The notes under the pieces were generated by a model. It had not been told where the DNA came from and did no database searches. It saw only the letters and a list, made by a program, of their open reading frames with translations. 36,538 nucleotides of DNA, from contig CACIWU010000010.1 in NCBI GenBank assembly GCA_902590435.1, positions 1 through 36,538 of the forward strand, in the 5' to 3' direction. This DNA comes from an uncultured SAR324 cluster bacterium. GTDB lineage: Bacteria > SAR324 > NAC60-12. Below are positions 15,544 through 36,538 of this stretch, in pieces (within the stretch, counting starts at the first letter, position 1; every line of letters starts with the position of its first letter). The translations under genes were made by a program, and so were the position numbers.

Positions 15544-16418
15544 CTATAATGGATCCTTTTATCAAACAATACAAATTGGACGATTGAAACAATTGCTAAA
15601 ATAAGCAGTAAAATTACTGTAAGAGTTGCTGCATATGACGAATCAAGAAAAGAAAATGCAGATTCATAGATATAATAAAGGATCAAATTACTTGCGTTAT
15701 CAGGTCCACCTTTAGTTAATATGAAAAGATGATCTACTAACTTAAATGAATTTAATGTTGCGTTTATAACAACGAACAGAGTTATTGGCATCAGTAAAGG
15801 GAAAGTAATCCTCCGAAAAAAATAATATTTTGATGCTCCTTCTATTTTGGCAGCTTCTTTAAGTTCAGGAGGAATGTTTTGTAAAGCTGCCAAATAAAAT
15901 ATCATAAAAAATCCAGCTTCTTTCCAAATAGTAATTAAAATAAGGCAATTAAGTACAGTTTCTTTATCACCTAACCAATTTTGACTTCCAAAACCTAAAT
16001 TTATAGCTATTTGATCAATAAGACCTATTTCTGGAGTATAGAAAAATAACCAAATATTAGATACTGCAATCATAGGTAAAATTGTCGGAGTAAAGTAAGC
16101 CATTCTAACTAAAACTCTTCCCTTTATTTTACTATCTACAAATAAAGCCATAAGAATTGCTAAAAATACTGAAGGAATGATTGTAGCAACCGCATACCAC
16201 AGATTATTTAATACTGCCTCTAAAAATATTGGGTCATCGAGAGCTAACTCATAATTTTCAAATCCTATAAACTTACTCGGGAATTTTTTTGTACCTGTAC
16301 TAAAAAAACTAGAAATCAACGTTGTAAATGACGGAATATGAGTAAACAATCCCATCAGGATCAATGCTGGAGTAATTAACAACCAAGCATATACTTGTGA
16401 AAGATTATTTTTAAACAT
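15540..16418 (-). CDS. Sugar ABC transporter permease (MalF/UgpA type)
   Basis: Inner-membrane permease of 292 residues, six helices predicted by eye, with the first helix at about 10-32. The EAA loop KEAAKIEGASKYYFFRRITFPLL is near residues 186-208 and the ILTKGGPDNASNLILYYIYE segment is typical of MalF/UgpA-type subunits. It follows the binding-protein gene after a hairpin-containing spacer and is translationally coupled to the MalG-type partner. Confidence 0.9.
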   Translation of the reverse strand: MFKNNLSQVYAWLLITPALILMGLFTHIPSFTTLISSFFSTGTKKFPSKFIGFENYELALDDPIFLEAVLNNLWYAVATIIPSVFLAILMALFVDSKIKGRVLVRMAYFTPTILPMIAVSNIWLFFYTPEIGLIDQIAINLGFGSQNWLGDKETVLNCLILITIWKEAGFFMIFYLAALQNIPPELKEAAKIEGASKYYFFRRITFPLLMPITLFVVINATLNSFKLVDHLFILTKGGPDNASNLILYYIYESAFSFLDSSYAATLTVILLLILAIVSIVQFVLFDKRIHYR

Positions 16419-16473
16419 TCAGGATAATGTTTTCTGGAGGGATTAATAATTTTTTAAGTTAGACTATATTTGC

Positions 16474-16499
16474 GGAAGGTACTAATTGAAGTACCTCCC
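16474..16499 (-). other. Intercistronic hairpin after the Ugp-type binding-protein gene
   Basis: GGAAGGTACT (16474-16483) pairs with AGTACCTCCC (16490-16499) with one mismatch around a six-base loop. It is placed 13 bases after the binding-protein stop, as in the ehuB-ehuC spacer. It probably stabilises the upstream message or lowers read-through into the permease genes. Confidence 0.6.
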
Positions 16500-16512
16500 A
16501 CAATTCAATGAA

Positions 16513-17787
16513 TTATTTATATCTCTTTAAAAGTTTTTCAGCATTTTTTTGTGCGCCTTTTAATGCAGACTTAGGTGTCTTATTTCCTGTGAGAGCAGAC
16601 TGAATTGCATCATCGAGTAATTTTCTGACCCTACCAGTTTGAAAAGTTGATAACTCTGCAGTTGCATAATTCAATTGATCTCTTGCTACAAGAGCAGGAG
16701 GGAATTGTTTAACATAATTTGTTAATGCACTTGTTTGATATGAAGCTGGACTAACTCCCATATATCCGGTGGCCATTGACCAATGAGCAGCTTGTTCAGG
16801 ACTAGTCATAAACTTAATTAAACGCATGGAAGCCTTCTTTTCTGCTTCTGAACTCTTTTTGAAGATATAGAAATTACCTCCACCAGTTGGTGTACCTCTT
16901 CGCTTGCTTGCTGGAAGCATTGCTACTCCAAAGTCGAATTTAGCATTCTTTTTAACAGTTGTTAAATTTCCTGTTGAATGCCACATGATTGCAGTTTTTC
17001 CTTCAAGAAAATTTTTCCTTAAAGTACCCCACTCAATGGTTCCGGAAGGCATTACTTTGTGTTTATTACCCAAATCATGCCAAAATTGAAGGGCTCCTAC
17101 AACGTTAGGGTGATCAAAATATGTTACATTCCCATCTCCGTTCATCAGCACTTGATCATTTTGCATTGTCAATGCACCAAACATCCAATACGGATAACCA
17201 GTAGAAGGAATCATTACACCCCAAGAATTTGTACTACTTTTGATCTTCTTACCATAGGAGACTAATTCGTTCCAAGTATTGGGTGGTTTGTTTGGATTCA
17301 ATCCAGCTTTTCTGAACAAATCCTTATTGTAATACATCACGATAGTAGATCTTTGAAAAGGAATCCCCCATACTTTTCCATCCGTTACTCCATTTTCCAT
17401 TAAGGTTGGATAAAAAGAGTACAACCAGGCTTTATCTTCATAACTAGTAACTAAATCATCAAAAGGTACTATCGCGTCTTGCTCAATCAATTCGTAGATA
17501 TCTATTGAAAACATTACTGATAATTGTGCTGGCTTACCACTTTTTAATGCGGCAAGAGCCTTTATTCTAGCGTCGTTATAATTACCAGCATAAATTGCGT
17601 TTACTTTCACATCTGGATTCTTTCTTTCAAAATCATTTACCATTCCATCTACAATTTTAGTCAGGGGTCCACCTACCGCAACAGGATAATACATATTCAG
17701 TTCAATACTGAATAATTTTGTTGCAAAAGACATAACAAATACGATTGTTGTCAAACCTATAAATGATATTTTAATTTTTTTTAACAT
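16513..17787 (-). CDS. Sugar ABC transporter substrate-binding protein (UgpB-like, family 1)
   Basis: Periplasmic binding protein of 424 residues with a signal peptide at about 1-27. The mature start reads LNMYYPVAVGGPLTKIVDGM, and NPDVKVNAIYAGNYNDA follows, close to the UgpB arrangement. The middle part YYNKDLFRKAGLNPNKPPNTWNELV is the conserved CUT1 binding-protein motif, and GGGNFYIFKKS follows near residue 304. The gene sits between the ATPase and the permeases in one transcript, with hairpins on both sides. A glycerol-phosphate, glycerophosphodiester or sugar ligand is possible; homology by eye does not settle it. Confidence 0.88.
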   Translation of the reverse strand: MLKKIKISFIGLTTIVFVMSFATKLFSIELNMYYPVAVGGPLTKIVDGMVNDFERKNPDVKVNAIYAGNYNDARIKALAALKSGKPAQLSVMFSIDIYELIEQDAIVPFDDLVTSYEDKAWLYSFYPTLMENGVTDGKVWGIPFQRSTIVMYYNKDLFRKAGLNPNKPPNTWNELVSYGKKIKSSTNSWGVMIPSTGYPYWMFGALTMQNDQVLMNGDGNVTYFDHPNVVGALQFWHDLGNKHKVMPSGTIEWGTLRKNFLEGKTAIMWHSTGNLTTVKKNAKFDFGVAMLPASKRRGTPTGGGNFYIFKKSSEAEKKASMRLIKFMTSPEQAAHWSMATGYMGVSPASYQTSALTNYVKQFPPALVARDQLNYATAELSTFQTGRVRKLLDDAIQSALTGNKTPKSALKGAQKNAEKLLKRYK

Positions 17788-17838
17788 ACTTTTTCTCTCT
17801 TAGTTATTTAATTGATAAGGATATATCTCCAAAACATT

Positions 17839-17859
17839 AAGCAAAGACTATCTTTGCTT
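17839..17859 (-). other. Intercistronic hairpin before the Ugp-type binding-protein gene
   Basis: AAGCAAAG (17839-17846) and CTTTGCTT (17852-17859) form a perfect 8-bp stem with a five-base loop, between the ATPase stop and the binding-protein start. No T-tract follows on the - strand, so it is more likely a processing or stabilising element than a terminator. Confidence 0.55.
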
Positions 17860-17879
17860 CTTCAAAAAATTGTATAAAA

Positions 17880-18932
17880 CTAATTATCTCTGATTCCAGA
17901 TTCAAAATCAAAATAATGTGATTTTTTTTTATCCCAAGTTAAAAATACATGATCTGAAATTTCATCAATTATCTTTGATTCAAATCTTGCGTAAATAGCT
18001 TGTTTACCCATTTTTAAAGATAAAACTACATCCGCCCCCTGATAATCTATATCGCTAATCTTGCACTTAATTCCTTTTTTAGAAATTTCAAAATCTTCCG
18101 GTCTAATACCTAAAATTGTTTTTTTAACATATTTTTTATTTACAAAAAATTTTTCATCATCGATTGGAATAAAGTTCTCATCATTATCATTATCGAACTC
18201 CAAATTTATCAAATTCATAGGAGGGTTTCCAATAAACTTAGCTGCGAAAGTATTCTCGGGTTCTTCGTAGAGTATTTTTGGTTTACCTTGTTGAACTATT
18301 TCTCCTTCATTCATTAATACTACTTTATCAGCCATACTCATCGCCTCTGTTTGATCGTGAGTGACATATACTAATGTAATTTTTAAATCTTTCTGAAGGG
18401 AACGAATTTCAGCACGCATTTGGTGTCTCAACTTAGCATCTAAATTTGATAACGGTTCATCCATCAAACAGATTGGATTTTCATTAATAATTGCTCTTGC
18501 TAGTGCAACTCTCTGTCTTTGTCCGCCTGAAAGTTCTGAAGGCTTTCTACCCAATAATTTACTTAAACCAACCTTTTCAGCCACACTAGCTAATTTAGTT
18601 TCTCTATCTTCTTTATTAACTTTTCTAACTTTAAGACCAAATATAATATTTTCTTGTACACTTAGATGTGGGAAAAGTGCATATGACTGAAAGACCATTG
18701 ATATATTTCTTAATGATGGATCCAAATTATTTACATTTTGACCATCTATAATAATTTCACCTGAAGATACTGATTCCAATCCAGCAATTAATCTTAGAGT
18801 GGTCGATTTCCCGCAGCCTGAAGGACCTAACAATACTACGAAATCTCCCTCTTCAATCTCTAAATTAAATTTTTCTACTGCCTTAACATCACCCCAGTAT
18901 TTAGCAACATCATTGAGTTCAATGAAACTCAT
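17880..18932 (-). CDS. Sugar ABC transporter ATP-binding protein (UgpC/MalK type)
   Basis: 350-residue ATPase that drives the Ugp-like importer. Walker A GPSGCGKSTT is near residue 36, the Q-loop is MVFQSYALFPHLS, the signature LSGGQRQR is near residue 134 and Walker B is ICLMDEPLSNLDAKLR, followed by the switch HDQTEAMS. Residues from about 240 form the TOBE/OB regulatory domain typical of CUT1 ATPases. It is the first gene of the operon and is divergent from the GntR regulator gene, which suggests shared control. Confidence 0.92.
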   Translation of the reverse strand: MSFIELNDVAKYWGDVKAVEKFNLEIEEGDFVVLLGPSGCGKSTTLRLIAGLESVSSGEIIIDGQNVNNLDPSLRNISMVFQSYALFPHLSVQENIIFGLKVRKVNKEDRETKLASVAEKVGLSKLLGRKPSELSGGQRQRVALARAIINENPICLMDEPLSNLDAKLRHQMRAEIRSLQKDLKITLVYVTHDQTEAMSMADKVVLMNEGEIVQQGKPKILYEEPENTFAAKFIGNPPMNLINLEFDNDNDENFIPIDDEKFFVNKKYVKKTILGIRPEDFEISKKGIKCKISDIDYQGADVVLSLKMGKQAIYARFESKIIDEISDHVFLTWDKKKSHYFDFESGIRDN

Positions 18933-19881: not shown

Positions 19882-21051
19882 ATGAAAATAACTAATATAG
19901 TAAGTCATATTCTAAAACACGACCTTGGTGAGGAACTTGGTTATTCTCAACAGTATTACAGTAAACGCAGCGCACACTTAGTGGAAATACAAACTGATGA
20001 AGGAATTGTAGGATGGGGAGAGTGTTTCGGTCCGGGTAATGTAGCTATAGCGAACAAATGTATTGTAGAAAAAGTTATACAACCGTTGATTATTGATTAT
20101 GACCCATTAGACCGTGAAGTCATCTGGCATAGAGTTTATAATCTACTTAGAGACCACGGACAAAAAGGAATGGTATTACAAGCACTTTCTGGAATTGATA
20201 TAGCTCTTTGGGACATAGGCGGTAAAATCACAGGACAATCTATTTCAAAAATGATTGGAGGTCGACATAGAGAAAAAGTAGCTGTATATGGTTATGGAAT
20301 GATGTTGAGAAAGGAAAATATAGACTCATTAACCTCTCGTTTTGCTGAAGAGGCAGCTACTATAAAAACTTCCGGTTATGTCGCAACAAAAATGAAAATT
20401 GGCTTAGGTATAGAAAAAGATTTAAAATTAGCTGAAGCAGTTCGGAAGGGTATAGGAGATGATTTTAAATTTATGGTAGATGCAAACCATTGTTACACTT
20501 TAGGAGATGCACTATATGTGGGTCGTGGATTAGAGGAATTGAATGCCTTTTGGTTTGAAGAACCTTTAGCTCCTGAAGATTGTATTGGTTATAAAGAATT
20601 GCGCAAAAAACTGGATATCAAAATTGCTGGAGGTGAAACGGAATTTACTCGCTGGGGCTGGAGAAACTTGTTAGAAAATAGGTGTTTAGATATAGCTCAA
20701 CCTGAAGTTTGTGCCCTAGGAGGGATTTCTGAATATGTTAAGGTAATTACTCTAGCTCATTCTTACTTTGTCCCAGTAGTAAATCATGTCTGGGGCTCAG
20801 ATATAGCTGTTGCTATTAATTTGCAACTGCTAGCCGCAATGCCACCTTTGCCGGGTGGCCTTTATCCCGCTGAACCAATTTTGGAGTTTGATACAACTTA
20901 TAGTAGGTTTAGGGATGATTTATTGACAAACCCACTTGATATTAAGGGGCAGGTCAAAAAAAATGATGGATATGTTTCGATTCCAGATTTTCCAGGTATT
21001 GGTGTTGAACCTGATCGAGATTTCATCAAAAAATATACCATTTCGGAATGA
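19882..21051 (+). CDS. Enolase-superfamily sugar-acid dehydratase (galactonate-dehydratase-like role)
   Basis: 389 residues, capping domain then TIM barrel. The K170-M-K172 motif (ATKMKIG), metal ligands D200 (VDANH), E226 (WFEEP) and E252 (AGGETE) and the general base H302 (VVNHVWGSD) are all present. The residue normally Asp next to that His is E275 (AQPEVCALGG). It belongs to the mandelate-racemase subgroup that dehydrates aldonates. With dgoK and dgoA downstream, it most likely makes 2-keto-3-deoxygalactonate or an epimer from galactonate or a related aldonate. It is not close enough by eye to E. coli DgoD to use that name. Confidence 0.87.
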   Translation: MKITNIVSHILKHDLGEELGYSQQYYSKRSAHLVEIQTDEGIVGWGECFGPGNVAIANKCIVEKVIQPLIIDYDPLDREVIWHRVYNLLRDHGQKGMVLQALSGIDIALWDIGGKITGQSISKMIGGRHREKVAVYGYGMMLRKENIDSLTSRFAEEAATIKTSGYVATKMKIGLGIEKDLKLAEAVRKGIGDDFKFMVDANHCYTLGDALYVGRGLEELNAFWFEEPLAPEDCIGYKELRKKLDIKIAGGETEFTRWGWRNLLENRCLDIAQPEVCALGGISEYVKVITLAHSYFVPVVNHVWGSDIAVAINLQLLAAMPPLPGGLYPAEPILEFDTTYSRFRDDLLTNPLDIKGQVKKNDGYVSIPDFPGIGVEPDRDFIKKYTISE

Positions 21052-24221: not shown

Positions 24222-24683
24222 ATGTGGAATATAGAAGAGAGGAATCTTCTTAAACTAATACTTAAAGAGTTAATACCTGCTAGTGAAGATGGGAAAATTC
24301 CGTCTGCTGGATTGACGAATGTAATAAATTATCTAGAAAAAAAATCAAAAGAAGAACTAAGTGTAAAAAAACTTTTTAATGTCGGGATTTTAAGAGTTAA
24401 AAATTTCGTGATTTCAACGAAAAAAGATATAAATTATATTAATTCAAAAGATACTATTTTGTTCTTAAAAATACTTGAAAATGAGGAACCATTTTTCTTT
24501 AAAGAATTTTTGAAACATACTTACATGGGTTACTATAGTGAACCAACTGTTAGACCCTATTTCGGCGTTTCTTCTAATCCACCTCATCCAATAGGTTATG
24601 AAGTACCTCTCGAAGAATCTAATTTTTTAGAAAGTCTTGTAGAGCCTGTAAAAAAAAGAGGTGTTTGCTATAGAAAGTGTTGA
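24222..24683 (+). CDS. Gluconate 2-dehydrogenase subunit 3-like small subunit
   Basis: 153-residue protein. The N-terminal part LLKLILKELIPASEDGKIPSAG and the C-terminal TYMGYYSEPTVRPYFGVSSNPPHPIGYE are characteristic of the small (gamma) subunit of FAD-dependent gluconate and glucose dehydrogenases. Well-studied members carry a Tat signal that exports the complex; this one has none, and an in-frame TAG at 24213-24215 excludes a longer N-terminus. It overlaps or abuts the GMC subunit gene. It should assemble with the flavoprotein, probably in the cytoplasm. Confidence 0.85.
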   Translation: MWNIEERNLLKLILKELIPASEDGKIPSAGLTNVINYLEKKSKEELSVKKLFNVGILRVKNFVISTKKDINYINSKDTILFLKILENEEPFFFKEFLKHTYMGYYSEPTVRPYFGVSSNPPHPIGYEVPLEESNFLESLVEPVKKRGVCYRKC

Positions 24684-24685
24684 AG

Positions 24686-26314
24686 ATGCAAAAAAATGAA
24701 ATTACAAAAAACCCTAAAGTAGATGTTTTGATTGTTGGAGCAGGTGCTTCTGGTGCCGCAATTGCTCACTCTCTAACTGAGTTGGGAGTAAGTATTACAT
24801 GCCTTGAACAAGGTAATTGGGTAGATCACACGAATTTTCCGAGTACTAAGCCTGATTATGAATTGCATCGTTATTCTGATTTCAGCTGTGATCCTAATGT
24901 TCGTAAGCAGCCACAGGACTATCCAATAAATTCAGATGAGTCTCCAATAACTCCCGTAAATTATAACGCCGTTGGTGGTTCAACAATTAATTATCTTGGA
25001 CATTGGCCTAGATTTCATCCATCTGATTTTCGAACTAGATCACTCGATGGCGTTGGAAATGACTGGCCAATAGATTATGAAACTTTAGAGCCTTTTTATG
25101 ACATTAATAGTAATATCATGGGTGTATCTGGTCTTTCAGGGAATCCAGCATATCCTTATTATAAAACCACACTACCTCCTATCACAATTGGGAAATTAGG
25201 ACAAATATTAGCAAAAGGATTCAATAAGCTTGGATGGCATTGGTGGCCTTCTGATACAACAATTCTTAGTCAAGAATATGAAGGTCGCTCTAAATGTGTA
25301 AATGCTGGAACATGTGACCTTGGCTGCGCAGCTGGAGCAAAAGCAAGTGTAGATATTACTTATTGGCCATTGCTTAAACGAAAGAGAGTGGAACTAAGAA
25401 CACAGTGTAGAGTTCGAGAGGTCACAATTAATAATGACGGTATGGCTAAGGGAGTTCTCTACTATGATTCAGAAGGGAATTTACAGGAACAAAAAGCAGA
25501 AATAGTAGTGATGGCTTGCAATGGAATAGGAACTCCAAGAATATTACTAAACTCAAAATCTAAGTTGTTCCCAGAAGGTATTGCAAATCGAAGTGGACTG
25601 ATTGGGAAAAATCTTATGTTTCACCCACTTTCTGGAGTGGTTGGCATTTTCGATGAGCCTATGGATGGTTTTAAAGGTCCTATGGCTTGTAGTATTCTAA
25701 GTCAAGAATTTTATGAAACAGATAAATCGCGTGATTTTGTCAGAGGTTATGGATTACACAGTGGCAGATATACTACTCCAATGACATATGCTCTTGGTGG
25801 ATATGGAACGGATAAATTAATACCATGGGGTAATGAACATAGAAAAAGTATGGATGAGTATCCTTACTTAGCTGGGCTTACTGTAGTTACTGAAGATCTA
25901 GCAAGAGAAAGCAATGCAGTAACTCTTGATTCAGGCCTTACAGATTCAAATGGTATCCCTGCGCCAAAAATTTCATATAAGGTTGATGAAAATACAAAAA
26001 AAATGCTTGTTCATGGCGAAGAAAGAGCAAAAGAAGCTTTATTAGCTGCCGGGGCTAAAAAAATTATTTCTGCAGGAGGAGACGTATGGTGGCGTGCTGG
26101 ATGGCATCAAATGGGAACTGCACGTATGGGTAATAACCCAGAAAATTCTGTAGTTAATTCTTGGGGTCGTTGCCATGATGTTAAAAATCTTTTTATTGTT
26201 GATGGAAGTATTTTTGTGACCGCAGGAGCAGTAAATCCAACCTGTACTATTCAAGCTTTATCTTTATATATAGGCGACAGTATAAAAAAAAATGTCGAAA
26301 ATTTATTTGATTAA
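24686..26314 (+). CDS. GMC-family FAD/Fe-S sugar dehydrogenase, catalytic subunit
   Basis: Flavoprotein of about 542 residues. The FAD motif LIVGAGASGAAIAHSLTELG ends with LEQG. The C-terminal catalytic part WHQMGTARMGNNP supplies the active-site His and GAVNPTCTIQALS the second residue (Asn). Cysteines at 204, 210 and 214 (CVNAGTCDLGC) have the C-x5-C-x3-C spacing of the 3Fe-4S site of bacterial FAD glucose dehydrogenases. No signal peptide. No cytochrome c subunit gene follows. With the small subunit it would oxidise an imported aldose (or aldonate) and pass electrons to an unknown acceptor. GTG at 24677 is an alternative start; its first codons overlap the previous stop. Confidence 0.88.
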   Translation: MQKNEITKNPKVDVLIVGAGASGAAIAHSLTELGVSITCLEQGNWVDHTNFPSTKPDYELHRYSDFSCDPNVRKQPQDYPINSDESPITPVNYNAVGGSTINYLGHWPRFHPSDFRTRSLDGVGNDWPIDYETLEPFYDINSNIMGVSGLSGNPAYPYYKTTLPPITIGKLGQILAKGFNKLGWHWWPSDTTILSQEYEGRSKCVNAGTCDLGCAAGAKASVDITYWPLLKRKRVELRTQCRVREVTINNDGMAKGVLYYDSEGNLQEQKAEIVVMACNGIGTPRILLNSKSKLFPEGIANRSGLIGKNLMFHPLSGVVGIFDEPMDGFKGPMACSILSQEFYETDKSRDFVRGYGLHSGRYTTPMTYALGGYGTDKLIPWGNEHRKSMDEYPYLAGLTVVTEDLARESNAVTLDSGLTDSNGIPAPKISYKVDENTKKMLVHGEERAKEALLAAGAKKIISAGGDVWWRAGWHQMGTARMGNNPENSVVNSWGRCHDVKNLFIVDGSIFVTAGAVNPTCTIQALSLYIGDSIKKNVENLFD

Positions 26315-26376
26315 AATAAAATTTAATTTAAATTAAAACATAGATTTAACTAATTAAAAGTAATTAAAATAAAAAA

Positions 26377-27315
26377 GTGATAAAGCCATGTCTGATAGCT
26401 CTCGATTGGGGTAGCACGCGTTTTAGAGCTTGGTTGCTAGATTCCAAAGGAATTGAGATAGATAGTTTAGATGAAGAATTTGGCATACTAAATATAAATG
26501 ATTCTCAATACATAAATGTATTTGATCAACTTCTTGGTTCTTGGATTAAAGAATTTGGGAGTATTCCAGTAATTGCTTCTGGAATGATTGGAAGTCGTCA
26601 AGGATGGATAGAAGCACCGTACTTAGATTGCCCTGCTGGACCTGAACAGTTAGCACAAAACTTAACTTTTTTAAATATAAATACTGAGTTAATTAATAAT
26701 CCAATTTCAATGGCTATTGTTCCTGGAATAAAAGTCTTTGAGAATGGTATTCCAGATGTGATGCGTGGTGAAGAGACACAAGTAGCTGGACTATTATGGA
26801 GCAATCATCAAGTTGATCTATGCATTTTCCCTGGTACTCATAGTAAGTGGATTTTATTAAATGAAGGTAGAATAGAAAATTTTATGACATTTATGACAGG
26901 TGAAATTTTTTCTTTAATGGCTAAGCACAGTATCGTTAACAGGTTAATGGATGGTACATCATTCAAAAGAGATGACTTTATAATTGGATGTAAGCAGTCA
27001 TTAAATAGCTCATATGGATTGCTTAAATCGATCTTTAGTGCACGAACTATGGGTCTTTTTGATAAAGTTATCCCTAAAGGGATTTATTCTTATCTTTCAG
27101 GAATAATCATTGGGAATGAAATTAAAGATGGCATAAAAATCTTTTATAATAATTCCGGTGAAAAAGGGAAAAAAATTATTTTGAATGGAGAAAACTCTTT
27201 ATGTAATCTTTATAAAATAGCTTTTGAATTAGCTGATGTAAAAATTAACTTCGAAAAAAACAATGTTGTTGCTAAAGGTTTGTTTCAGATTGCTAATACA
27301 GCTTTTTTGAAATAA
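26377..27315 (+). CDS. dgoK: 2-dehydro-3-deoxygalactonokinase
   Basis: 312-residue sugar-acid kinase. It phosphorylates 2-keto-3-deoxygalactonate on O6. The N-terminal phosphate motif IALDWGSTRFRAWLLD and the segments VIASGMIGSRQGWIEAPYLDCPAG, VMRGEETQVAG and IFPGTHSKWI are all characteristic of DgoK. The start is GTG at 26377; the ATG at 26388 is out of frame. The gene is four bases from dgoA and in the same operon as the dehydratase and importer, which completes a De Ley-Doudoroff type route. Confidence 0.93.
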   Translation: MIKPCLIALDWGSTRFRAWLLDSKGIEIDSLDEEFGILNINDSQYINVFDQLLGSWIKEFGSIPVIASGMIGSRQGWIEAPYLDCPAGPEQLAQNLTFLNINTELINNPISMAIVPGIKVFENGIPDVMRGEETQVAGLLWSNHQVDLCIFPGTHSKWILLNEGRIENFMTFMTGEIFSLMAKHSIVNRLMDGTSFKRDDFIIGCKQSLNSSYGLLKSIFSARTMGLFDKVIPKGIYSYLSGIIIGNEIKDGIKIFYNNSGEKGKKIILNGENSLCNLYKIAFELADVKINFEKNNVVAKGLFQIANTAFLK

Positions 27316-27319
27316 TCAG

Positions 27320-27970
27320 ATGGATATAGCACAAAAAAATATAATAAACGAATTGCCTTTAATTGCTATATTACGCGGTATTAGACCTGAAGAATGTATA
27401 GATATTGGCTGTGAACTTTTTAAAGTTGGATTCCGTATTATTGAAATACCTCTCAATTCTCCTGAAGCTTTTAAGAGTATTGAGAAACTAGCTCTAAAAT
27501 TAAAGAATGGAGTTATAATTGGAGCAGGAACAATTTTAAATATGAAACAACTTAAAATACTTTCTGATGCTGGAGGGCAGTTAGCCGTTATGCCTCACAC
27601 TGATTTAAAAATTGTCGAGATGGCAAAAAAGTTAAATCTTATTTGTTTCCCTGGAGTAGCGTCACCAACTGAAGCGATTTCTGCATTGGATGCCGGTGCT
27701 GATGGATTGAAAATATTCCCTGCAGAAATGATTATTCCTAAAGTTCTTAAATCTTGGAAAGCCATTTTGCCTAAGGATACAATGCTTTTTCCAGTTGGAG
27801 GAATTGAACCAGAATCGATAGCGCCTTATGTTTTGGCAGGAGCTACAGGGTTTGGAATTGGTTCAGCACTTTACAAACCAGGCAAAAATGTATTAGACGT
27901 TGTTAAAAATGGTAGAGATTTTATAAAAAGCTGGGAAAAAATTAAATTTTCATTGAATGAGAGCAAATAA
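27320..27970 (+). CDS. dgoA: 2-dehydro-3-deoxy-6-phosphogalactonate aldolase
   Basis: 216-residue class I aldolase that splits 2-keto-3-deoxy-6-phosphogalactonate into pyruvate and glyceraldehyde-3-phosphate. R19 (AILRGI), E42 (IEIPLNSP), the Schiff-base K131 (GLKIFPAE) and GAGTIL near residue 68 are present at the positions expected from E. coli DgoA (E37 and K126). It follows dgoK with a four-base gap and is the last gene of the operon, followed by a terminator-like hairpin. A KDPG aldolase is the closest alternative, but the neighbour DgoK favours the galactonate form. Confidence 0.92.
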   Translation: MDIAQKNIINELPLIAILRGIRPEECIDIGCELFKVGFRIIEIPLNSPEAFKSIEKLALKLKNGVIIGAGTILNMKQLKILSDAGGQLAVMPHTDLKIVEMAKKLNLICFPGVASPTEAISALDAGADGLKIFPAEMIIPKVLKSWKAILPKDTMLFPVGGIEPESIAPYVLAGATGFGIGSALYKPGKNVLDVVKNGRDFIKSWEKIKFSLNESK

Positions 27971-29301: not shown

Positions 29302-30234
29302 TTAATAACCTTTTGAAGGATTAATTATATTCAATAATGATTTATTTTTTGAATATCTTTTAAAATTATCTAAGAATAAATATACTTTATCTTGTATTTC
29401 ATTAGTATATCCACCCCCTGTATGTTGAGTAAGTATAAGGTTTGGGCAATTCCATAGTTGACTATTTTCATGTAAAGGCTCTTCTGATGTAACGTCTAAA
29501 ACTGCGCCTTTAATTGTTTTATTTTTAAGCTTTTCTATTAAATTATTTTCATCAATCAAATCACCTCTACCAACATTAACAAGAATAGAATGTTTTGATA
29601 ATGAATTTAACATAGTTTTGTTAAAAAGCATTTTAGTTGTTTTTGTGCCTGGTAATGCACAAACAATTATTTCGGCTAACTTTAATTTGTTAAGAATAAA
29701 TTCTTTTGTTGAATGTGAGTCTATAAATGAACATTTGCAATCAAAAGGTTTCAAATATTTTGAAAATTCTTTGTTGATTGAACCTTTACCAAAAAATAAA
29801 ACTTTTTTATTGTTTAAGATTTCTAATTTCTTTCTGATGGGATCTCCAACCCATTTCTTTTCTTTTTTTAATAATGGGAAAAGATCTGTCCCCCTATAGA
29901 GTGCAAGTACTCCTGCTAGTGCGGTTTGCGCAACTTGACTGGCAAAAAAACTCTTTAAATTAGTTATTATTACGTCGTTTTTTAAAAAGTTTTTTCTTAT
30001 TTCTGAATATTCACCAAAACCAGTAGATTCTAATTGAACCCATTTTAATTTACTACTTTGTGGTATCCAGTTTGGAGGAATATTTCCAAACACAATCTCA
30101 CATTTAAGAAAATTTTTATCAGCAGTTTTATTAAATACTAGACTAGAAAAATATAAATTATGTTTTTTTAAATTGTTTTGGATTATTTTTTTTTCTGAAC
30201 CATCTAGTTCAAAAGCTATAAAAATATTCATCAA
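29302..30234 (-). CDS. D-isomer-specific 2-hydroxyacid dehydrogenase
   Basis: 310-residue NAD(P)-dependent reductase. The nucleotide-binding domain has a GKGSIN variant of GxGxxG (149-154). The catalytic triad is present as R223 (NVGRGDLID), E252 (TSEEP) and H271 (TQHTGGG), with LDV at 246-248. The family interconverts 2-oxo acids and D-2-hydroxy acids, for example glyoxylate, hydroxypyruvate or 2-oxoglutarate-type substrates. It is the last gene of the operon with the NMT1-type importer, DHDPS-family lyase, dehydratase and aldehyde dehydrogenase, so it may reduce an oxo-acid fragment of the pathway. Confidence 0.9.
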   Translation of the reverse strand: MMNIFIAFELDGSEKKIIQNNLKKHNLYFSSLVFNKTADKNFLKCEIVFGNIPPNWIPQSSKLKWVQLESTGFGEYSEIRKNFLKNDVIITNLKSFFASQVAQTALAGVLALYRGTDLFPLLKKEKKWVGDPIRKKLEILNNKKVLFFGKGSINKEFSKYLKPFDCKCSFIDSHSTKEFILNKLKLAEIIVCALPGTKTTKMLFNKTMLNSLSKHSILVNVGRGDLIDENNLIEKLKNKTIKGAVLDVTSEEPLHENSQLWNCPNLILTQHTGGGYTNEIQDKVYLFLDNFKRYSKNKSLLNIINPSKGY

Positions 30235-30245
30235 AATCTTTATTA

Positions 30246-31727
30246 TTAGTGACTAATCCATATAGTTTTTGTCTGAAGATATTGATTCAAGGCTTCGGTA
30301 CCTTGATCTCTACTCAAAGAACCCGATTGCTTGTAACCACCAAAAGGAGTTTTAATGTCTCCCTCTGAAAATGTATTTATGGAGATTGTTCCACAAGGGA
30401 GACTTTTTGCCATATGAAATGCTTCATTAATATCTTGAGAAAATACACTAGCATGAAGTCCATATTTAGAGTTTCTAGCTATTTTTAAAGCATCTTCAGT
30501 ATTATTGACGGTAAGGATCCCAAGAACTGGACCAAATATTTCATCTTGGGCAATGGTCATATCCTCTGTTAAATTATCAAAAAGAGTTGGTTTTGCAAAA
30601 AAACCATTTTGATCACTCTCAGACACTCCGCCATACAAAAGAGTTGCTCCTTCATCAATACCTTTTTGAATAAAACCATCAACTGTTGCCAAATGTTTTT
30701 TAGATATCATTGAACCCATATTTGTTTCTGAATCAAGTGGGTCGCCAACTTGAATATCCTTTACTTTTTTTATAACTTTCTCCAAAAATTCTTCTTTTAC
30801 ATTACTGTGAATAATTTGACGCATATTTGCTGAACAGTTTTGACCACCATTCCAAAAAGCTGAATCTATAGCATTGTTTATTAAATCATCCGTTATTTTT
30901 GCATCACCTAAAACTATAAAAGGGCTTTTGCCCCCCATTTCAAGGCCAACAGTTTTCAAATTACTTTCACCAGAATATTTTAAAAAATAACCCCCTACTT
31001 CTGTTGAGCCCGTGAACGATACTGCATCAACGTCATTGTGTCTCCCTAGTGCTTCGCCAACATCACCAAAACCTGGTAAAACATTAAATACACCATCTGG
31101 AATTCCTGCCTCCTTAGCAATTTGTGCAACCCTAATTGCTGTTAAAGGGGTGTCTTCTGCCGGTTTTATTATTAATGAGCAACCAGCAGCTAATGCAGGA
31201 GCTGATTTCCAAACTGCCATCATTAAAGGGAAATTCCAAGGAACAACTCCAGCAACGACTCCTATAGGTTCTTTAACAATTAAACTAGTGATTGATGGTT
31301 CTGTAGGGCAAACTTTTCCAAACACTTTATCTATCAATTCTCCATACCATTGAAAGTGCATAGGCGCATCATTAGCAACTTCATCCACACAATCACCAAT
31401 TAATTTTCCTGTATCAACACATTCAAGAACTGAATTTTCTTCGCCATGTTGTCTCAATAATTCCGCAAATTTAAGTAAAATTTCTTTTCTAAATTCTGGA
31501 GATGCTCTCGACCAAATTCCACTTTCAAAAGCTTTTCTTGAAGACTTAACGGCTAAATCTACATCTTTGAAATTACATTTAGCTACTGAACAAAGAGTTT
31601 CTCCAGTAGCTGGATTTATATTTTCAAATTTTTGACCATCAATTGCATCAACATATTTACCATCAATGAATGCTCTACCTTCAAAATTTAATTTACTAGC
31701 AATTGATTTATAGTTTGGTGTTTCCAT
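30246..31727 (-). CDS. NAD(P)-dependent aldehyde dehydrogenase (PuuC/betaine-aldehyde type)
   Basis: 493-residue aldehyde dehydrogenase with all catalytic residues: N165 (PWNFP), K188 (IKPAE), E263 (LEMGGKSP) and C298 (GGQNCSA). The C-terminus PFGGYKQSGSLSRDQGTEALNQYLQTKTIWI is close to the PuuC group that oxidises gamma-aminobutyraldehyde derivatives. In this operon, after a DHDPS-family lyase, it is likely to oxidise the aldehyde released in the lyase step; 2-oxoglutarate semialdehyde is one candidate. It could also serve the FAH-family enzyme at 4286. Confidence 0.9.
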   Translation of the reverse strand: METPNYKSIASKLNFEGRAFIDGKYVDAIDGQKFENINPATGETLCSVAKCNFKDVDLAVKSSRKAFESGIWSRASPEFRKEILLKFAELLRQHGEENSVLECVDTGKLIGDCVDEVANDAPMHFQWYGELIDKVFGKVCPTEPSITSLIVKEPIGVVAGVVPWNFPLMMAVWKSAPALAAGCSLIIKPAEDTPLTAIRVAQIAKEAGIPDGVFNVLPGFGDVGEALGRHNDVDAVSFTGSTEVGGYFLKYSGESNLKTVGLEMGGKSPFIVLGDAKITDDLINNAIDSAFWNGGQNCSANMRQIIHSNVKEEFLEKVIKKVKDIQVGDPLDSETNMGSMISKKHLATVDGFIQKGIDEGATLLYGGVSESDQNGFFAKPTLFDNLTEDMTIAQDEIFGPVLGILTVNNTEDALKIARNSKYGLHASVFSQDINEAFHMAKSLPCGTISINTFSEGDIKTPFGGYKQSGSLSRDQGTEALNQYLQTKTIWISH

Positions 31728-31755
31728 TTTCCTCTTCTTTTATAATTATAAATTA

Positions 31756-32952
31756 TTATTGCCAATAGTTATCATCTGGCTGACCTCTATCGACAACAAC
31801 ACAAGAATATACTGACTTTTCATCAAATGAAAAATCTTTTTCAATTTCATCATTCATAGTAATACCTAGCCCCGATATTTCAGGCTTTATAATATTGCCA
31901 TTCTCAATAACTCTATGATCTTCAAACATTATTGGTTCTAACTTGTATGGTATCATTGGAAATTCAACTAAATTTCCATTGCATCCAAAAGCAACATGAT
32001 AATTTGCCATAATTGCAACTGGTCCGCCCCAAGCATGTACAACAGGTACTATATTTTTGGTTTTTGCATGTTCAAAAACTTCTTTTACTGCATGCATCCC
32101 TCCAATTACAGATGCATCCGGTTGAACAAAATTATAAATATCTAAGTTTAACCTTTGTATCATTTCTGTGGGTGTGGTTATGATTTCTCCTCCACAAATA
32201 GCTATTTTAAGAGTTTCTTTTAATTTTTTAAATCCAATTATATCCATTGGACCAACAGCTTCCTCAAGAAATAAAATTTTTTCCTTAGTAATCTTTTTTA
32301 CAGAGTTAATATAACTAATTACATCATCCGCATTTATGGGAGGATCTGCCAAATTCTGACACATATCGATACCAATATCGATACCATATTTTCTGGCCTC
32401 TTTTAATACCCAGGCAGTTCTTTTTATATCTTTAGTAACTGATCTAATCTTATATTTTTTTATTCCTAGTGATTTTAAAAGCTCTAATTCTTCAATAAAA
32501 TGCTCTTTAGTATCACAAATACCTCCACTGCCATAAATTTCGATTTGTCCCTTTGAGCTATTCCCAAATAATCTATAGGCAGGGCATTTCTGGGTTTTTG
32601 ATTTTGCGTCAACTAAAGCAATTTCTACTGCACTTGTTGTATGCCTTGCTGCACCCTGTAATGACCAGTAATCACAAACACTACATAAATCTTTATATCT
32701 ACCTAAAATGTCAAACCCGTCTTTTCCGACAAGATATGGTGAGCATAGCTGTACAATTGCTTTAAATACGTTAGGAGCAAAAACTCCTAAATAACCTTCA
32801 CCATAACCTTTAATACCATTTTCAAGAGTTACTTCAACTAATCCTATGGTTCTTTTTGGACCATTAGGGAAACATTCTAAAATTTCTGGATGCTTTTCAT
32901 GACCATAATCCGCTGATAATAAAATTGGTCTTATATTTTCAATTTTACTCAT
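31756..32952 (-). CDS. Enolase-superfamily dehydratase/racemase with K-x-R motif
   Basis: 398 residues, capping domain then barrel. Metal ligands D196 (GIDMC), E230 (FLEEAVG) and E256 (CGGEI) and the Asp-His pair D279 (QPDASVIGG) and H306 (VVHAWGG) mark it as a member of the mandelate-racemase subgroup. The second-strand motif, normally K-x-K, reads K168-I-R170. It overlaps the DHDPS-family gene by four bases (ATGA) and is therefore coupled to it. Such a dehydratase should feed its 2-keto-3-deoxy product to the lyase. The acid substrate is unknown; the long N-terminal segment before the cap (HEKHPEILECFPN) is a useful search handle. Confidence 0.85.
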   Translation of the reverse strand: MSKIENIRPILLSADYGHEKHPEILECFPNGPKRTIGLVEVTLENGIKGYGEGYLGVFAPNVFKAIVQLCSPYLVGKDGFDILGRYKDLCSVCDYWSLQGAARHTTSAVEIALVDAKSKTQKCPAYRLFGNSSKGQIEIYGSGGICDTKEHFIEELELLKSLGIKKYKIRSVTKDIKRTAWVLKEARKYGIDIGIDMCQNLADPPINADDVISYINSVKKITKEKILFLEEAVGPMDIIGFKKLKETLKIAICGGEIITTPTEMIQRLNLDIYNFVQPDASVIGGMHAVKEVFEHAKTKNIVPVVHAWGGPVAIMANYHVAFGCNGNLVEFPMIPYKLEPIMFEDHRVIENGNIIKPEISGLGITMNDEIEKDFSFDEKSVYSCVVVDRGQPDDNYWQ

Positions 32953-33905
32953 TGAAATTTTAGATGAGGGACTTTAATTTTTTTCATATAATCAAGAGTT
33001 CTCTGTCTATATTTTTTACGAACATCTCTTGTTGGTGGCCTACATCTACTCGATGGAAGACCAACTAATTCCATACAAAGTTTATCCAAATATCCATCAC
33101 CAGAAGTATAATTTGTTTCGATTTCTACCCAAAGTTTATAAAAAGGCATTGCTTCTTCAACCATCATTCTTGCAATTTCTTCAAATTGCTTATCTTTAAC
33201 TTCAGTAATCAATTTTGCACCCCATTCTGGCCAAAAGTTACAAATATGAACCTCAAAAGATTTAGCATTTAATGGTTTCATTGCTGAATAGGGAAAGAAT
33301 AAATTGTTATCAATTATTGTGAACCTATCAGAATATGTTGACGTTACGTCTTCAAATTCCATAGCATCAGTGCGGGGTGTGGCCCATTTTAAACCAACAA
33401 TATTTTGAAGATCTATTATTCTTTCAATAAGTTGATTAGAAACACTTGTTGAAGTCCAAAAAGTATTATATAGAATTATACCGATTCCATTTGCTGCCTT
33501 GGATGCAGCTGTTATATACTCTGCAAAATCATCTTCTGTATGTTGGAAATAAAAGGGACATGAAACTTGAAGGAAATCATATCCATAATCTTTTGCAATA
33601 AAAGCTAGTTTTTCTAATTCTTGTGTATTTGTTGTTTGTCCACCTAGAGCAATTGGAACTCTTCCATTTACTATTTTAGCCCCTTCTATTGCTAATGCTG
33701 TTCTCTCATCAAAGCTCATTGCAGAAAAATCGCCTGCAGCTCCACCAAAAAGAAGTGTACAATTATTATTATCCAAACCATTACCTAATAAAAACTCTAC
33801 ATAATCTTCAAGGGCATCAAAATTTAAAGGCAAATCTTTTTCATCTTTGAATGGTGTTGGTACTGTTACATAACAACCTTCCAGTTTTTTTTTTAATAAT
33901 CTCAT
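32949..33905 (-). CDS. Dihydrodipicolinate synthase-family lyase
   Basis: 318-residue class I lyase of the DHDPS/NAL family. The Schiff-base K173 (VGLKWAT) and Y146 (ILYNTFW) are in place. The usual GTTGE motif reads GGAAGDF (54-60), so the carboxylate-binding threonines are replaced by alanines and the Glu by Asp. The C-terminal extension PTRDVRKKYRQRTLDYM is longer than in DapA. It is therefore not lysine biosynthesis; a catabolic aldolase or dehydratase such as 5-keto-4-deoxyglucarate dehydratase or a hydratase-aldolase is more likely. Between importer and dehydratase genes in the same transcript. Confidence 0.85.
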   Translation of the reverse strand: MRLLKKKLEGCYVTVPTPFKDEKDLPLNFDALEDYVEFLLGNGLDNNNCTLLFGGAAGDFSAMSFDERTALAIEGAKIVNGRVPIALGGQTTNTQELEKLAFIAKDYGYDFLQVSCPFYFQHTEDDFAEYITAASKAANGIGIILYNTFWTSTSVSNQLIERIIDLQNIVGLKWATPRTDAMEFEDVTSTYSDRFTIIDNNLFFPYSAMKPLNAKSFEVHICNFWPEWGAKLITEVKDKQFEEIARMMVEEAMPFYKLWVEIETNYTSGDGYLDKLCMELVGLPSSRCRPPTRDVRKKYRQRTLDYMKKIKVPHLKFQ

Positions 33906-33922
33906 ATTCCATTATATACTTC

Positions 33923-34702
33923 TTAAGTATTAATTCTTTTCATTGATATATGCCAAGGAATTAATATTTTTTCCATCATTGTAACAAAACCAAAAACAGA
34001 CAGGCCTAAACAAGTTAAGAAAAATATTCCTGCAAAAGCTAAATCCGGTCTCATATTTCCTGTGACAATGGAAATATAAAAACCAAGTCCTTGATCTGAT
34101 CCTATAAATTCTGCAATTGTTGCTCCTACAGTTGCATTAATAGCTGCATATTTAAAACCGACAAAACATTGAGGTAGAGCAGCAGGCAATCTAATTTTAA
34201 AAAAAGTTATTAAAGTATTTGCTCCAGTAGATTTGTAAAATAAAGTAAGTTCATTACTTAATGAATTAAATGCTAAAATTGCATTTAAGACAATTGGGAA
34301 GAAACAAACTAAAACTACAATAATTACTTTTGGCATTAAACCAAAACCAAACCAAGAAATAAATAATGGTGCAAAAGCAATTTTAGGTGTCATTTCAATA
34401 CTAACAAAGAAAGGATATAAAGTTCTTCTTAATATCGATGAAAAAGAAATAGCAATCCCAAATCCAAGTCCTAAAACTATAGCTATAAAGTATCCTAGTA
34501 CCGTCTCTAAGCCTGTAACTCCAGTATAATAAATCAATTTGTCTAAATCTGCAGAACCTTTTGCAACAATCTCAGAAGGTGCCGGAAGAATATATCTTGG
34601 TATTTCAAAAAAAGGGATCGAATATTCCCAAAATAAAAAAAACCCAACAAAAAATAATACTAACATCCATCCGCTAGCAACCCATTTAAAAAATTTTTGC
34701 AT
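33923..34702 (-). CDS. ABC transporter permease (TauC/SsuC/ThiX type)
   Basis: Inner-membrane permease of 259 residues with about six helices. After the first helix, FEIPRYILPAPSEI is the typical SsuC-type loop. The EAA-like loop NELTLFYKSTGANTLITFFKIRLPAALPQ (about 149-177) is complete, and ATVGATIAEFIGSDQGLGFYI follows. It belongs with the ATPase and binding protein upstream. The class imports sulfonates, pyrimidines, aromatic acids and other small organic molecules. Confidence 0.9.
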   Translation of the reverse strand: MQKFFKWVASGWMLVLFFVGFFLFWEYSIPFFEIPRYILPAPSEIVAKGSADLDKLIYYTGVTGLETVLGYFIAIVLGLGFGIAISFSSILRRTLYPFFVSIEMTPKIAFAPLFISWFGFGLMPKVIIVVLVCFFPIVLNAILAFNSLSNELTLFYKSTGANTLITFFKIRLPAALPQCFVGFKYAAINATVGATIAEFIGSDQGLGFYISIVTGNMRPDLAFAGIFFLTCLGLSVFGFVTMMEKILIPWHISMKRINT

Positions 34703-34716
34703 ATTAAGTGTATCTT

Positions 34717-35484
34717 TTATATAACTCCATATTTATGGAAAACTTCATGTATAGAAGTTAGGTAATTAATAAATTTTTTAGATCTTTTAACATTTAAATC
34801 TCTTGGATATGGAAGATCTATTTTTATTTCTCTATCTATTTTACCAGGCCTTGGAGTAATTAAAATAACTCTACTTGATAATTGTACGGCTTCTTCAATA
34901 GAGTGAGTAACAAATATAACAGTAGGTTTTTTAACCATCCACAATTTTTGAAAATCAGCTCTAATCTTTTCTCTTGTCATTGCATCTAATTTCCCAAGTG
35001 GCTCATCAAGTAGAATTATCTTTGGATCATGTATCATTGTTTGACAAAAAGCTGCTCTTTGCTGCATCCCTCCCGATAATTCATTTGAATATCTGTCAGC
35101 AAAATCTTCTAGACTTACAGATTTTAAAATATTATAAATTTGATCTTGATAGTCTTTTACTTTAAGTCCTCTTAATTCTAATTGTAATTCTATATTTGCT
35201 TTGATAGTTCGCCAAGGGACTAAAGTATTTTCCTGAAACATTATTCCTATATCCGTCTTTGGCTCTTTTAATAATTTACTTTCAAATTCTACCTTACCAC
35301 TGGTTGAATCCAGTAATCCCGCAATCATTAACATTAATGTTGATTTTCCACAACCAGATGGGCCTAAAACAGAAACAAATTCTCCGCTATTTATACTTAT
35401 ATTTGCAGGGCCAAATGCATGAATTTCCTCATTACCACTAACAAATACTTTGGTTAAATCTGTTATTTCTATAAATTTTTTCAT
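34717..35484 (-). CDS. ABC transporter ATP-binding protein (TauB/SsuB type)
   Basis: 255-residue ATPase. Walker A GPSGCGKSTL is near residue 41, the Q-loop is IMFQENTLVPWRT, the signature LSGGMQQR is near residue 137 and Walker B is IILLDEPLGKLDA with the switch THSIEEA. The VPWRT segment is characteristic of NitT/TauT-family ATPases. It pairs with the permease 14 bases downstream and the binding protein upstream, from which it is separated by a hairpin. Confidence 0.92.
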   Translation of the reverse strand: MKKFIEITDLTKVFVSGNEEIHAFGPANISINSGEFVSVLGPSGCGKSTLMLMIAGLLDSTSGKVEFESKLLKEPKTDIGIMFQENTLVPWRTIKANIELQLELRGLKVKDYQDQIYNILKSVSLEDFADRYSNELSGGMQQRAAFCQTMIHDPKIILLDEPLGKLDAMTREKIRADFQKLWMVKKPTVIFVTHSIEEAVQLSSRVILITPRPGKIDREIKIDLPYPRDLNVKRSKKFINYLTSIHEVFHKYGVI

Positions 35485-35497
35485 TTGGAAAACTTTA

Positions 35498-35530
35498 AAC
35501 TGGCCGAAAATTATTAATACTCGACCAGTT
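35498..35530 (-). other. Intercistronic hairpin after the NMT1-type binding-protein gene
   Basis: AACTGGCCG (35498-35506) and CGACCAGTT (35522-35530) pair over nine positions with one mismatch and a 15-base loop. On the - strand it lies 14 bases after the binding-protein stop and before the ATPase gene. Same position as the hairpins at 6950 and 16474. Confidence 0.6.
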
Positions 35531-35544
35531 CCGTAATGTATTAA

Positions 35545-36538
35545 TTAATTTACGAATTTATTCGTATAAAAGTCAGATGCCTTAGCGTTTTTATCTAAGT
35601 CATTATATTCTTTCATTAATTTAACCATACTGTTCCAATCAGAAGGAACGTTTAAACCAAGAACTCTATTCTTGTTAGCCCCGGAATATAATATTCCTAA
35701 AGTAACATCTAATACTTCTCTTGATTGAGCTTTACCAGCTTTTTCAGCCATTGAACCGCCAACTATGTCTGCTATTGCATCAACGGCAGCATCCGGGTTT
35801 TTTTCTGCTTTAGCATAAGCTTCCATTGTTGCTTTAATAAATCTTTTTGCTAAACCTGGTTTATTTTTAATTGTATCATTATGTGTGGCTATGCAGTATC
35901 CAACTTGATTAACTCCAAAATCAGAATAAGGGAATGCTATTGGTTGTGCACCACCATTTGCTTTTATTTCAGCTGGCTTATCGTCTAAACCACCAAGAAT
36001 AGCAACAGCTCCACCACTTCCTTGAAGATAGCTTGAAACAAGAGCTCCGTCTGGTACATTTGTTATATTAACATCAGATTCTTTAAGACCGGCATTAGAT
36101 AAAACAATTGGGAAAAAAGTGTTTACCCCTGCATTAGCAGTAGTCAATATTTTTTTACCTTTTAAATCTTTAATTGTTTTGACTCCACTATCTGGTCTTA
36201 CAAGAATAGCTTCTGTGCCCATAGCATCAATCACACCAATAGATTTTATTGGAGCACCTTTAGAGGCAAGGTCTGTCATGGCGCCACATGAACCATAAGA
36301 AAAATGACTATCTTTATTAGCCACTAATCTGTGCGCTGAACTTGAACCATTACCAGATCTAATATCTATATCAATACCATGTTTCTCGTAAATACCATCA
36401 ACAAAACCTAATGCAAAACCCGCATGCGAACCATAATACATCCAGTTTAATCTTAATTTAACCTTATCTGCAGCAAATGAAGCTGTCGAAGTTAGCAATA
36501 AAATAATTGCAAAATTGCAAATATTTTTGATTATATTT
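35545..36538 (-). CDS. ABC transporter substrate-binding protein (NMT1/SsuA type), 5' end outside window
   Basis: Periplasmic binding protein of the NitT/TauT class. The frame stays open through the signal peptide to the window edge (NIIKNICNFAIILLLTSTASFAADK), so the true start is probably just outside the window and TTG at 36498 is not the start. The mature part begins KVKLRLNWMYYGSHAGFALG with a typical SsuA/ThiY first lobe; GSCGAMTDLASKGAPIKSIGV is the ligand hinge region. It is the first visible gene of a seven-gene - strand operon whose enzymes imply an organic-acid or oxo-acid ligand. Ligand not known. Confidence 0.9.
   Translation of the reverse strand, partial: NIIKNICNFAIILLLTSTASFAADKVKLRLNWMYYGSHAGFALGFVDGIYEKHGIDIDIRSGNGSSSAHRLVANKDSHFSYGSCGAMTDLASKGAPIKSIGVIDAMGTEAILVRPDSGVKTIKDLKGKKILTTANAGVNTFFPIVLSNAGLKESDVNITNVPDGALVSSYLQGSGGAVAILGGLDDKPAEIKANGGAQPIAFPYSDFGVNQVGYCIATHNDTIKNKPGLAKRFIKATMEAYAKAEKNPDAAVDAIADIVGGSMAEKAGKAQSREVLDVTLGILYSGANKNRVLGLNVPSDWNSMVKLMKEYNDLDKNAKASDFYTNKFVN

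Follow-up and report, generated by a model that had tools for sequence, protein, structure and literature searches.

A conserved candidate acid-catabolism operon with an NMT1-type importer on a contig of a SAR324 cluster bacterium and its relatives in SAR11 and other bacteria

The contig CACIWU010000010.1 of an uncultured SAR324 cluster bacterium (assembly GCA_902590435.1) ends in a group of genes that combines an ATP-binding cassette (ABC) importer of the NitT/TauT class with members of four enzyme families. The window analyzed here is this whole contig (36,538 nucleotides), which belongs to a 1.51 Mb draft genome with 54% completeness. Seven open reading frames occupy positions 29302-36538, all on the minus strand, and the Pfam assignments agree with a preliminary description of this DNA that listed seven co-directional genes for an importer and four enzyme families at the same positions:

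29302..30234, minus strand, HADH, D-2-hydroxyacid dehydrogenase (Pfam PF02826, 6.8e-36)
30246..31727, minus strand, ALDH, aldehyde dehydrogenase (PF00171, 2.3e-156)
31756..32952, minus strand, ENOL, enolase-superfamily acid-sugar dehydratase-like protein of the mandelate-racemase subgroup (PF13378/PF02746; nearest solved structure 5olc)
32949..33905, minus strand, the lyase, class I with the DHDPS fold (PF00701)
33923..34702, minus strand, PERM, TauC/SsuC-like ABC importer permease (PF00528)
34717..35484, minus strand, ATP, ABC importer ATPase of the NitT/TauT class (PF00005; top NCBIfam models SaoA/TauB/NtrCD, below their cut-offs)
35545..36538, minus strand, SBP, NMT1/THI5-like periplasmic binding protein (PF09084, 2.4e-30; nearest solved structure 4nmy)

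The junctions between these genes range from a 4-base overlap to a 60-base gap. The SBP gene runs off the edge of the contig with its 5' end cut. Given that the reading frame stays open as far as base 36537 and that the homologues in SAR11 have 332 amino acids, the TTG codon listed as its start (36498) is probably artefactual and costs the protein part of its signal peptide. The sequence upstream of SBP is lost at the contig end; the SAR11 counterpart has a divergent AraC-type regulator in this place.

The active sites were compared in alignments of 85 (lyase), 55 (ENOL), 52 (HADH) and 33 (ALDH) rows, with catalytic roles that we take from general knowledge of the respective families. The lyase belongs to the DHDPS/N-acetylneuraminate lyase class I superfamily by its PF00701 domain, its invariant Schiff-base Lys173 and Tyr146, and its match to the TIM-barrel fold: an AlphaFold2 model (pLDDT 87.7) superimposes with TM of ~0.8 on DHDPS and N-acetylneuraminate lyase structures, at 16-22% identity and with no functional class preferred. 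The Thr/Ser carboxylate motif of the GTTGE type that characterizes DHDPS proper and N-acetylneuraminate lyase is missing from this protein and reads GGAAGD in all 84 readable rows; Trp174 and Arg178, just past the Schiff-base lysine, are invariant. ENOL has the three acidic Mg ligands and the Asp-His dyad of the mandelate-racemase subgroup of the enolase superfamily, with D196, E230/E231, E256, D279 and H306 invariant, and alignment to 5olc and other structures assigns D196/E231/E256 as the presumable Mg ligands and D279-H306 as the dyad; its K-x-R motif (K168-I-R170) is present in 55 of 55 rows. The triad R223/E252/H271 of HADH is invariant, its nucleotide-binding motif has the unusual form GxGxIN (Asn154 in 46 of 52 rows), and Cys298 and Glu263 of ALDH are conserved. 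The missing threonines of the lyase and the K-x-R of ENOL had already been pointed out in the preliminary description; since they show little or no variation among the relatives, they are, on the evidence of the alignments, family traits and not sequencing errors.

None of the seven proteins (0/7) reached the equivalog cut-off of an NCBIfam curated model. The lyase scored 61.7 bits with dapA (cut-off 206.15), 60.6 bits with KdgD (TIGR03249, cut-off 373.95) and 40.9 bits with nanA (cut-off 382). The best score of ENOL was 89 bits, compared with cut-offs of 650 and 750 for arabinonate and gluconate/galactonate dehydratases, respectively, and it fell below the equivalog cut-off for the galactonate, gluconate, arabinonate, talarate, mannonate and rhamnonate dehydratases. 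The top models for ALDH were PuuC (497 bits, cut-off 850) and BADH (482 bits, also below cut-off), ahead of 2-oxoglutarate-semialdehyde dehydrogenase (NF042993, KGSADH; 387 bits, cut-off 770). The importer shares its domain make-up and its ATPase and permease class with the TauABC, SsuABC and thiamine-precursor NMT1/THI5 importers, and SBP matches 4nmy over its full length, but all its proteins stay below the curated cut-offs (SBP: 87.1 bits with the SsuA family, cut-off 163.5, and 44.6 bits with TauA, cut-off 304.25), so that the likeness to TauABC and SsuABC is a class-level Pfam match only. Literature searches for NitT/TauT importers with these enzymes, for a Kdo/heptulosarate aldolase and for a cluster of sialidase, DHDPS and mandelate racemase genes returned nothing relevant, and a substrate is named in none of the papers and clusters retrieved. 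The operon thus fits no described pathway among those tested, as had been proposed for it, and at the level of curated models the lyase and ENOL do not fall into clusters of known function such as KdgD and glucarate dehydratase. The gud/gar pathway comes close, with a DHDPS-family, DapA-like aldolase (GudL, signature residues M110 and K194), the dehydratases GarD/GudD and the sugar-acid ABC importer GarABC, but it uses the reductase GarR and lacks the core of D-2-hydroxyacid dehydrogenase and ALDH (PMC11775122).

A scan of genome contigs with a lyase profile, followed by tblastn analysis of locus architecture, detected the lyase at 80 loci, mostly together with the cassette. The carriers include Mesorhizobium, Ancylobacter, Bosea, Defluviimonas, Nioella, Labrenzia, Ruegeria, Aureimonas, Pelagibius, relatives of Roseobacter, SAR11, gammaproteobacterial metagenome-assembled genomes (MAGs) and the window's own lineage. 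The operon is kept in tens of genomes and its conservation is therefore far beyond chance. The usual order in alphaproteobacteria is AraC-type regulator (divergent), lyase, SBP, ATPase, permease, ALDH, HADH, ENOL, and that in SAR11 is SBP, ATPase, permease, lyase, ENOL, HADH and sometimes ALDH; the full set is not present at every locus, and contig ends truncate some of the loci. In many clusters these genes are joined by a CUT1 importer, a second ALDH gene and one BNR_2 (sialidase-fold) protein or two; the operon at one locus (L053) contains a TRAP DctPQM set, and TRAP genes follow the operon at another (L026). The NitT/TauT-class importer noted at the outset is indeed part of the operon, whereas its contrast with the TRAP, MFS or CUT-type transporters of known acid-sugar routes is weakened by these relatives, which carry CUT1 or TRAP systems beside or instead of it. 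No relatives of the lyase were detected in PLSDB plasmids at E 1e-30 or in IMG/VR.

A subset of the loci lacks ENOL and HADH and has instead a GarD/UxaA-type dehydratase (PF04295, PF20629; 200 bits with TIGR03248, below cut-off) and an Ldh_2 dehydrogenase (PF02615; scoring with the L-sulfolactate dehydrogenase model, below cut-off). Among the long loci, 35 have ENOL with HADH and 14 have the UxaA-type dehydratase with Ldh_2; ENOL stands alone in 4, the GarD-type dehydratase alone in 1, neither is found in 2, and there is no mixed pair. On the lyase tree, each trait (dehydratase and dehydrogenase) changes four times, and the three independent, well-supported contrasts are all concordant in direction. 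The replacement genes are often non-adjacent, with one between the lyase and SBP and the other after the permease; the coupling is therefore probably functional. We infer that the two pairs represent stereochemically matched routes for the same two steps, and the appearance of a GarD-type dehydratase in the place of ENOL argues that ENOL is a sugar-acid dehydratase as well. Separately, on the Rhizobium plasmid p11515TR-A (L108:9123-13188), a 60% relative of the GarD-type dehydratase is encoded with an RraA-like aldolase, a short-chain dehydrogenase (SDR), a zinc dehydrogenase and an SBP_3 importer; such an aldolase with dehydrogenases fits a 2-keto-3-deoxy acid that is subsequently cleaved.

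The lyase of the window sits within the SAR11 clade (12 rows, support 100/99). Vertical descent is rejected: a tree constrained to place the protein in its own family is worse by 104.8 log-likelihood units (p-AU 3.6e-74). The top identities to SAR11 proteins are 90% for the lyase, 87% for ENOL, 84% for ALDH, 91% for SBP, 87% for the ATPase, 93% for the permease and 72% for HADH, compared with 54% (lyase), 56% (ENOL), 74% (SBP), 60% (ATPase), 76% (permease) and 41% (HADH) within the host's own family, in whose operons no ALDH orthologue was found. Misbinning of a SAR11 contig was also considered and rejected: the other genes of the contig are 76-77% identical to those of two genomes of the host's family (G035 and G036) and are absent or weakly matched in the SAR11 genomes searched, and the G+C content matches the other contigs of the genome. 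Because these other genes match the host family, the contig belongs to the host lineage and it is the operon that moved. Thus, judging from these comparisons, the operon apparently reached this genome by horizontal gene transfer with SAR11, and its nesting suggests SAR11 as the source. The relatives of this lineage were deposited as Deltaproteobacteria MAGs, which we infer to be SAR324.

We consider the odds slightly better than even that these operons encode a widespread undescribed acid-catabolic pathway common to soil bacteria, SAR11 and SAR324-like bacteria, with the DHDPS-fold lyase as its constant part, two interchangeable, fold-unrelated pairs of dehydratase and dehydrogenase, several interchangeable importers, and a history of transfer between SAR11 and a distant lineage. 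SAR11 dominates the surface-ocean plankton, and its diet is central to marine carbon cycling; a cassette common to these three groups points to a shared dissolved acid, maybe an unrecognised food. Given the presence of the cassette in named strains of Mesorhizobium, Ancylobacter, Defluviimonas and Nioella, the substrate should be findable by ordinary binding and growth tests, and the fact that two enzymes have repeatedly been swapped together for two unrelated ones gives a strong hint of the chemistry.

The reactions, their order and the class of the substrate can be tentatively predicted. Our preferred reading, to which we assign a probability of about 0.42, is that the operon imports and catabolizes a small, hydroxylated carboxylic acid resembling a sugar acid (a 2,3-dihydroxy acid) by dehydration, retro-aldol cleavage and two oxidations. 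The acid would be taken up by the NMT1-type binding protein and the ABC permease, and its dehydration by ENOL would yield a 2-keto-3-deoxy acid; the D279-H306 dyad would probably serve as the base, since arginine takes the second lysine position of the usual K-x-K motif. The lyase would then form a Schiff base at Lys173 and release pyruvate and an aldehyde by retro-aldol cleavage, oxidation of the aldehyde by ALDH would give a 2-hydroxy acid, from which HADH would form a 2-oxo acid; the GarD/UxaA-type dehydratase and Ldh_2 would perform the steps of ENOL and HADH in other lineages. This order gives a role to all four enzymes, the residues that would catalyze each step vary little or not at all, and the cassette is kept in many genera; the exchange of dehydratase and dehydrogenase as a pair also speaks for it; the TRAP DctPQM set within the L053 operon fits a carboxylate substrate. 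Several points weigh against this scheme. The GGAAGD motif of the lyase lacks the hydroxyls that normally hold the carboxylate of pyruvate, and the enzyme could be a dehydratase instead of an aldolase; ALDH is missing from the cluster at some loci; the direction of HADH is not readable from sequence; the three contrasts in the paired exchange are too few for significance (sign test p 0.25); and a glutamine-synthetase-like gene (PF00120; GGputSyn 164 bits) that accompanies the operon, without ALDH, in the window's own family (L010:4234-5517, L009:7979-9262 and L011:1917-3200) has no place in the scheme.

The preliminary description had compared the operon with hexarate and pentonate degradation, in which ENOL would dehydrate an aldarate or aldonate, the DHDPS-fold enzyme would dehydrate (and, for a hexarate, decarboxylate) the product to 2-oxoglutarate semialdehyde, and ALDH would yield 2-oxoglutarate. 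The same three superfamilies serve in known pathways of this kind, including the KdgD and Weimberg-type routes, KdgD is among the weak matches of the lyase, and the alternative dehydratase is of the GarD type. Degradation to 2-oxoglutarate nevertheless finds little backing in the data: the KdgD model remains far below its cut-off, ALDH is closer to PuuC and BADH than to KGSADH, several loci lack ALDH, and HADH or Ldh_2, which belongs to the core and is exchanged together with the dehydratase, is left without a role. We therefore regard this route as unlikely.

The BNR_2 proteins and the CUT1 importer that recur beside the lyase call for consideration of a different route, whereby sialidase-fold proteins would free a 3-deoxy-2-ulosonic acid (e.g., Kdo, Kdn or 3-deoxy-lyxo-2-heptulosaric acid), the lyase, acting like N-acetylneuraminate lyase, would cleave it to pyruvate and an aldehyde, and ALDH and ENOL would process the remainder (for heptulosaric acid, via D-tartrate to oxaloacetate). 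A BNR_2 model (pLDDT 73) has the sialidase propeller fold and matches many GH33 sialidases in Foldseek (TMq ~0.6-0.7), and the folds closest to that of the lyase include N-acetylneuraminate lyase. However, in the sequence alignment of BNRa Glu228 and Arg244 coincide with sialidase residues, and the sialidase Asp and first Arg, which fall near Gln50 and Asn21/Gln22, respectively, are not conserved, which weakens the case for a plain sialidase; the BNR_2 proteins may not be sialidases at all. In addition, no BNR gene was found in the SAR11 loci or in the window's genome, and the carboxylate-binding Ser/Thr of N-acetylneuraminate lyase is replaced by Ala-Ala in the lyase. This route appears quite improbable. 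The nearest solved structure of the BNR_2 family (L061:6393-7601 and orthologues) is 5hx0 (Dfer_1899), to which no function is assigned, and a literature search on this protein returned nothing relevant. In G036, a relative of the window's genome, a CUT1 importer, an ALDH and a BNR_2 protein form a unit apart from the lyase (L118:2664-8567), adjoining a transposase and another enolase-superfamily gene.

A route for a sulfonated sugar acid, in which dehydration and cleavage would yield pyruvate and sulfolactaldehyde, ALDH would produce sulfolactate, and HADH (like SlcC, which we take to be of the D-2-hydroxyacid dehydrogenase family) or Ldh_2 (like ComC, presumably of the Ldh_2 family) would produce sulfopyruvate, seems the least probable: the TauABC class of the importer, the score of the Ldh_2 partner with L-sulfolactate dehydrogenase and the invariant Arg178 near the Schiff-base lysine, which could hold an anion, speak for it, but in the window's cassette we recognised neither a sulfo-sugar dehydrogenase or lactonase nor a sulfolyase or sulfite exporter, and the CUT1 and sialidase-fold modules would be unexplained. 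The closest precedent, the sulfofucolytic Entner-Doudoroff pathway of Paracoccus (SfcH/D/F/E), shares an enolase-superfamily acid-sugar dehydratase (SfcF, proven in sulfofucose degradation), an aldolase that then releases pyruvate, an ABC importer and dehydrogenases, and its clusters carry SlcC, ComC and SuyAB; it differs in its aldolase of another family (PF03328), its lactonase and sugar dehydrogenase, and in that SlcC and ComC co-occur and are not alternatives (PMC12421959). No PF03328 aldolase, lactonase or SDR was detected by Pfam among the seven proteins, whose sole aldolase-type enzyme has the DHDPS fold, although the contig is cut upstream and absence there is not excluded.

Elsewhere on the contig, two more enolase-superfamily dehydratases and a sugar-acid block are encoded (1134-2249, 19882-21051 and 24677-27970). 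The best NCBIfam models for these two dehydratases are gluconate/galactonate and arabinonate dehydratase, below cut-off, and the block, named from reading the sequence, comprises a GMC oxidoreductase, a 2-keto-3-deoxygalactonate kinase and an aldolase; by its predicted gene content, the contig is a sugar-acid island. A binding protein at 6998-7864 scores above the curated cut-off for the ectoine/hydroxyectoine protein EhuB (293 vs 190.9 bits), and CUT1-type importer genes at 15540-18932 resemble the glycerol-3-phosphate system Ugp, below cut-off, with a binding protein 76% identical to that of G035.

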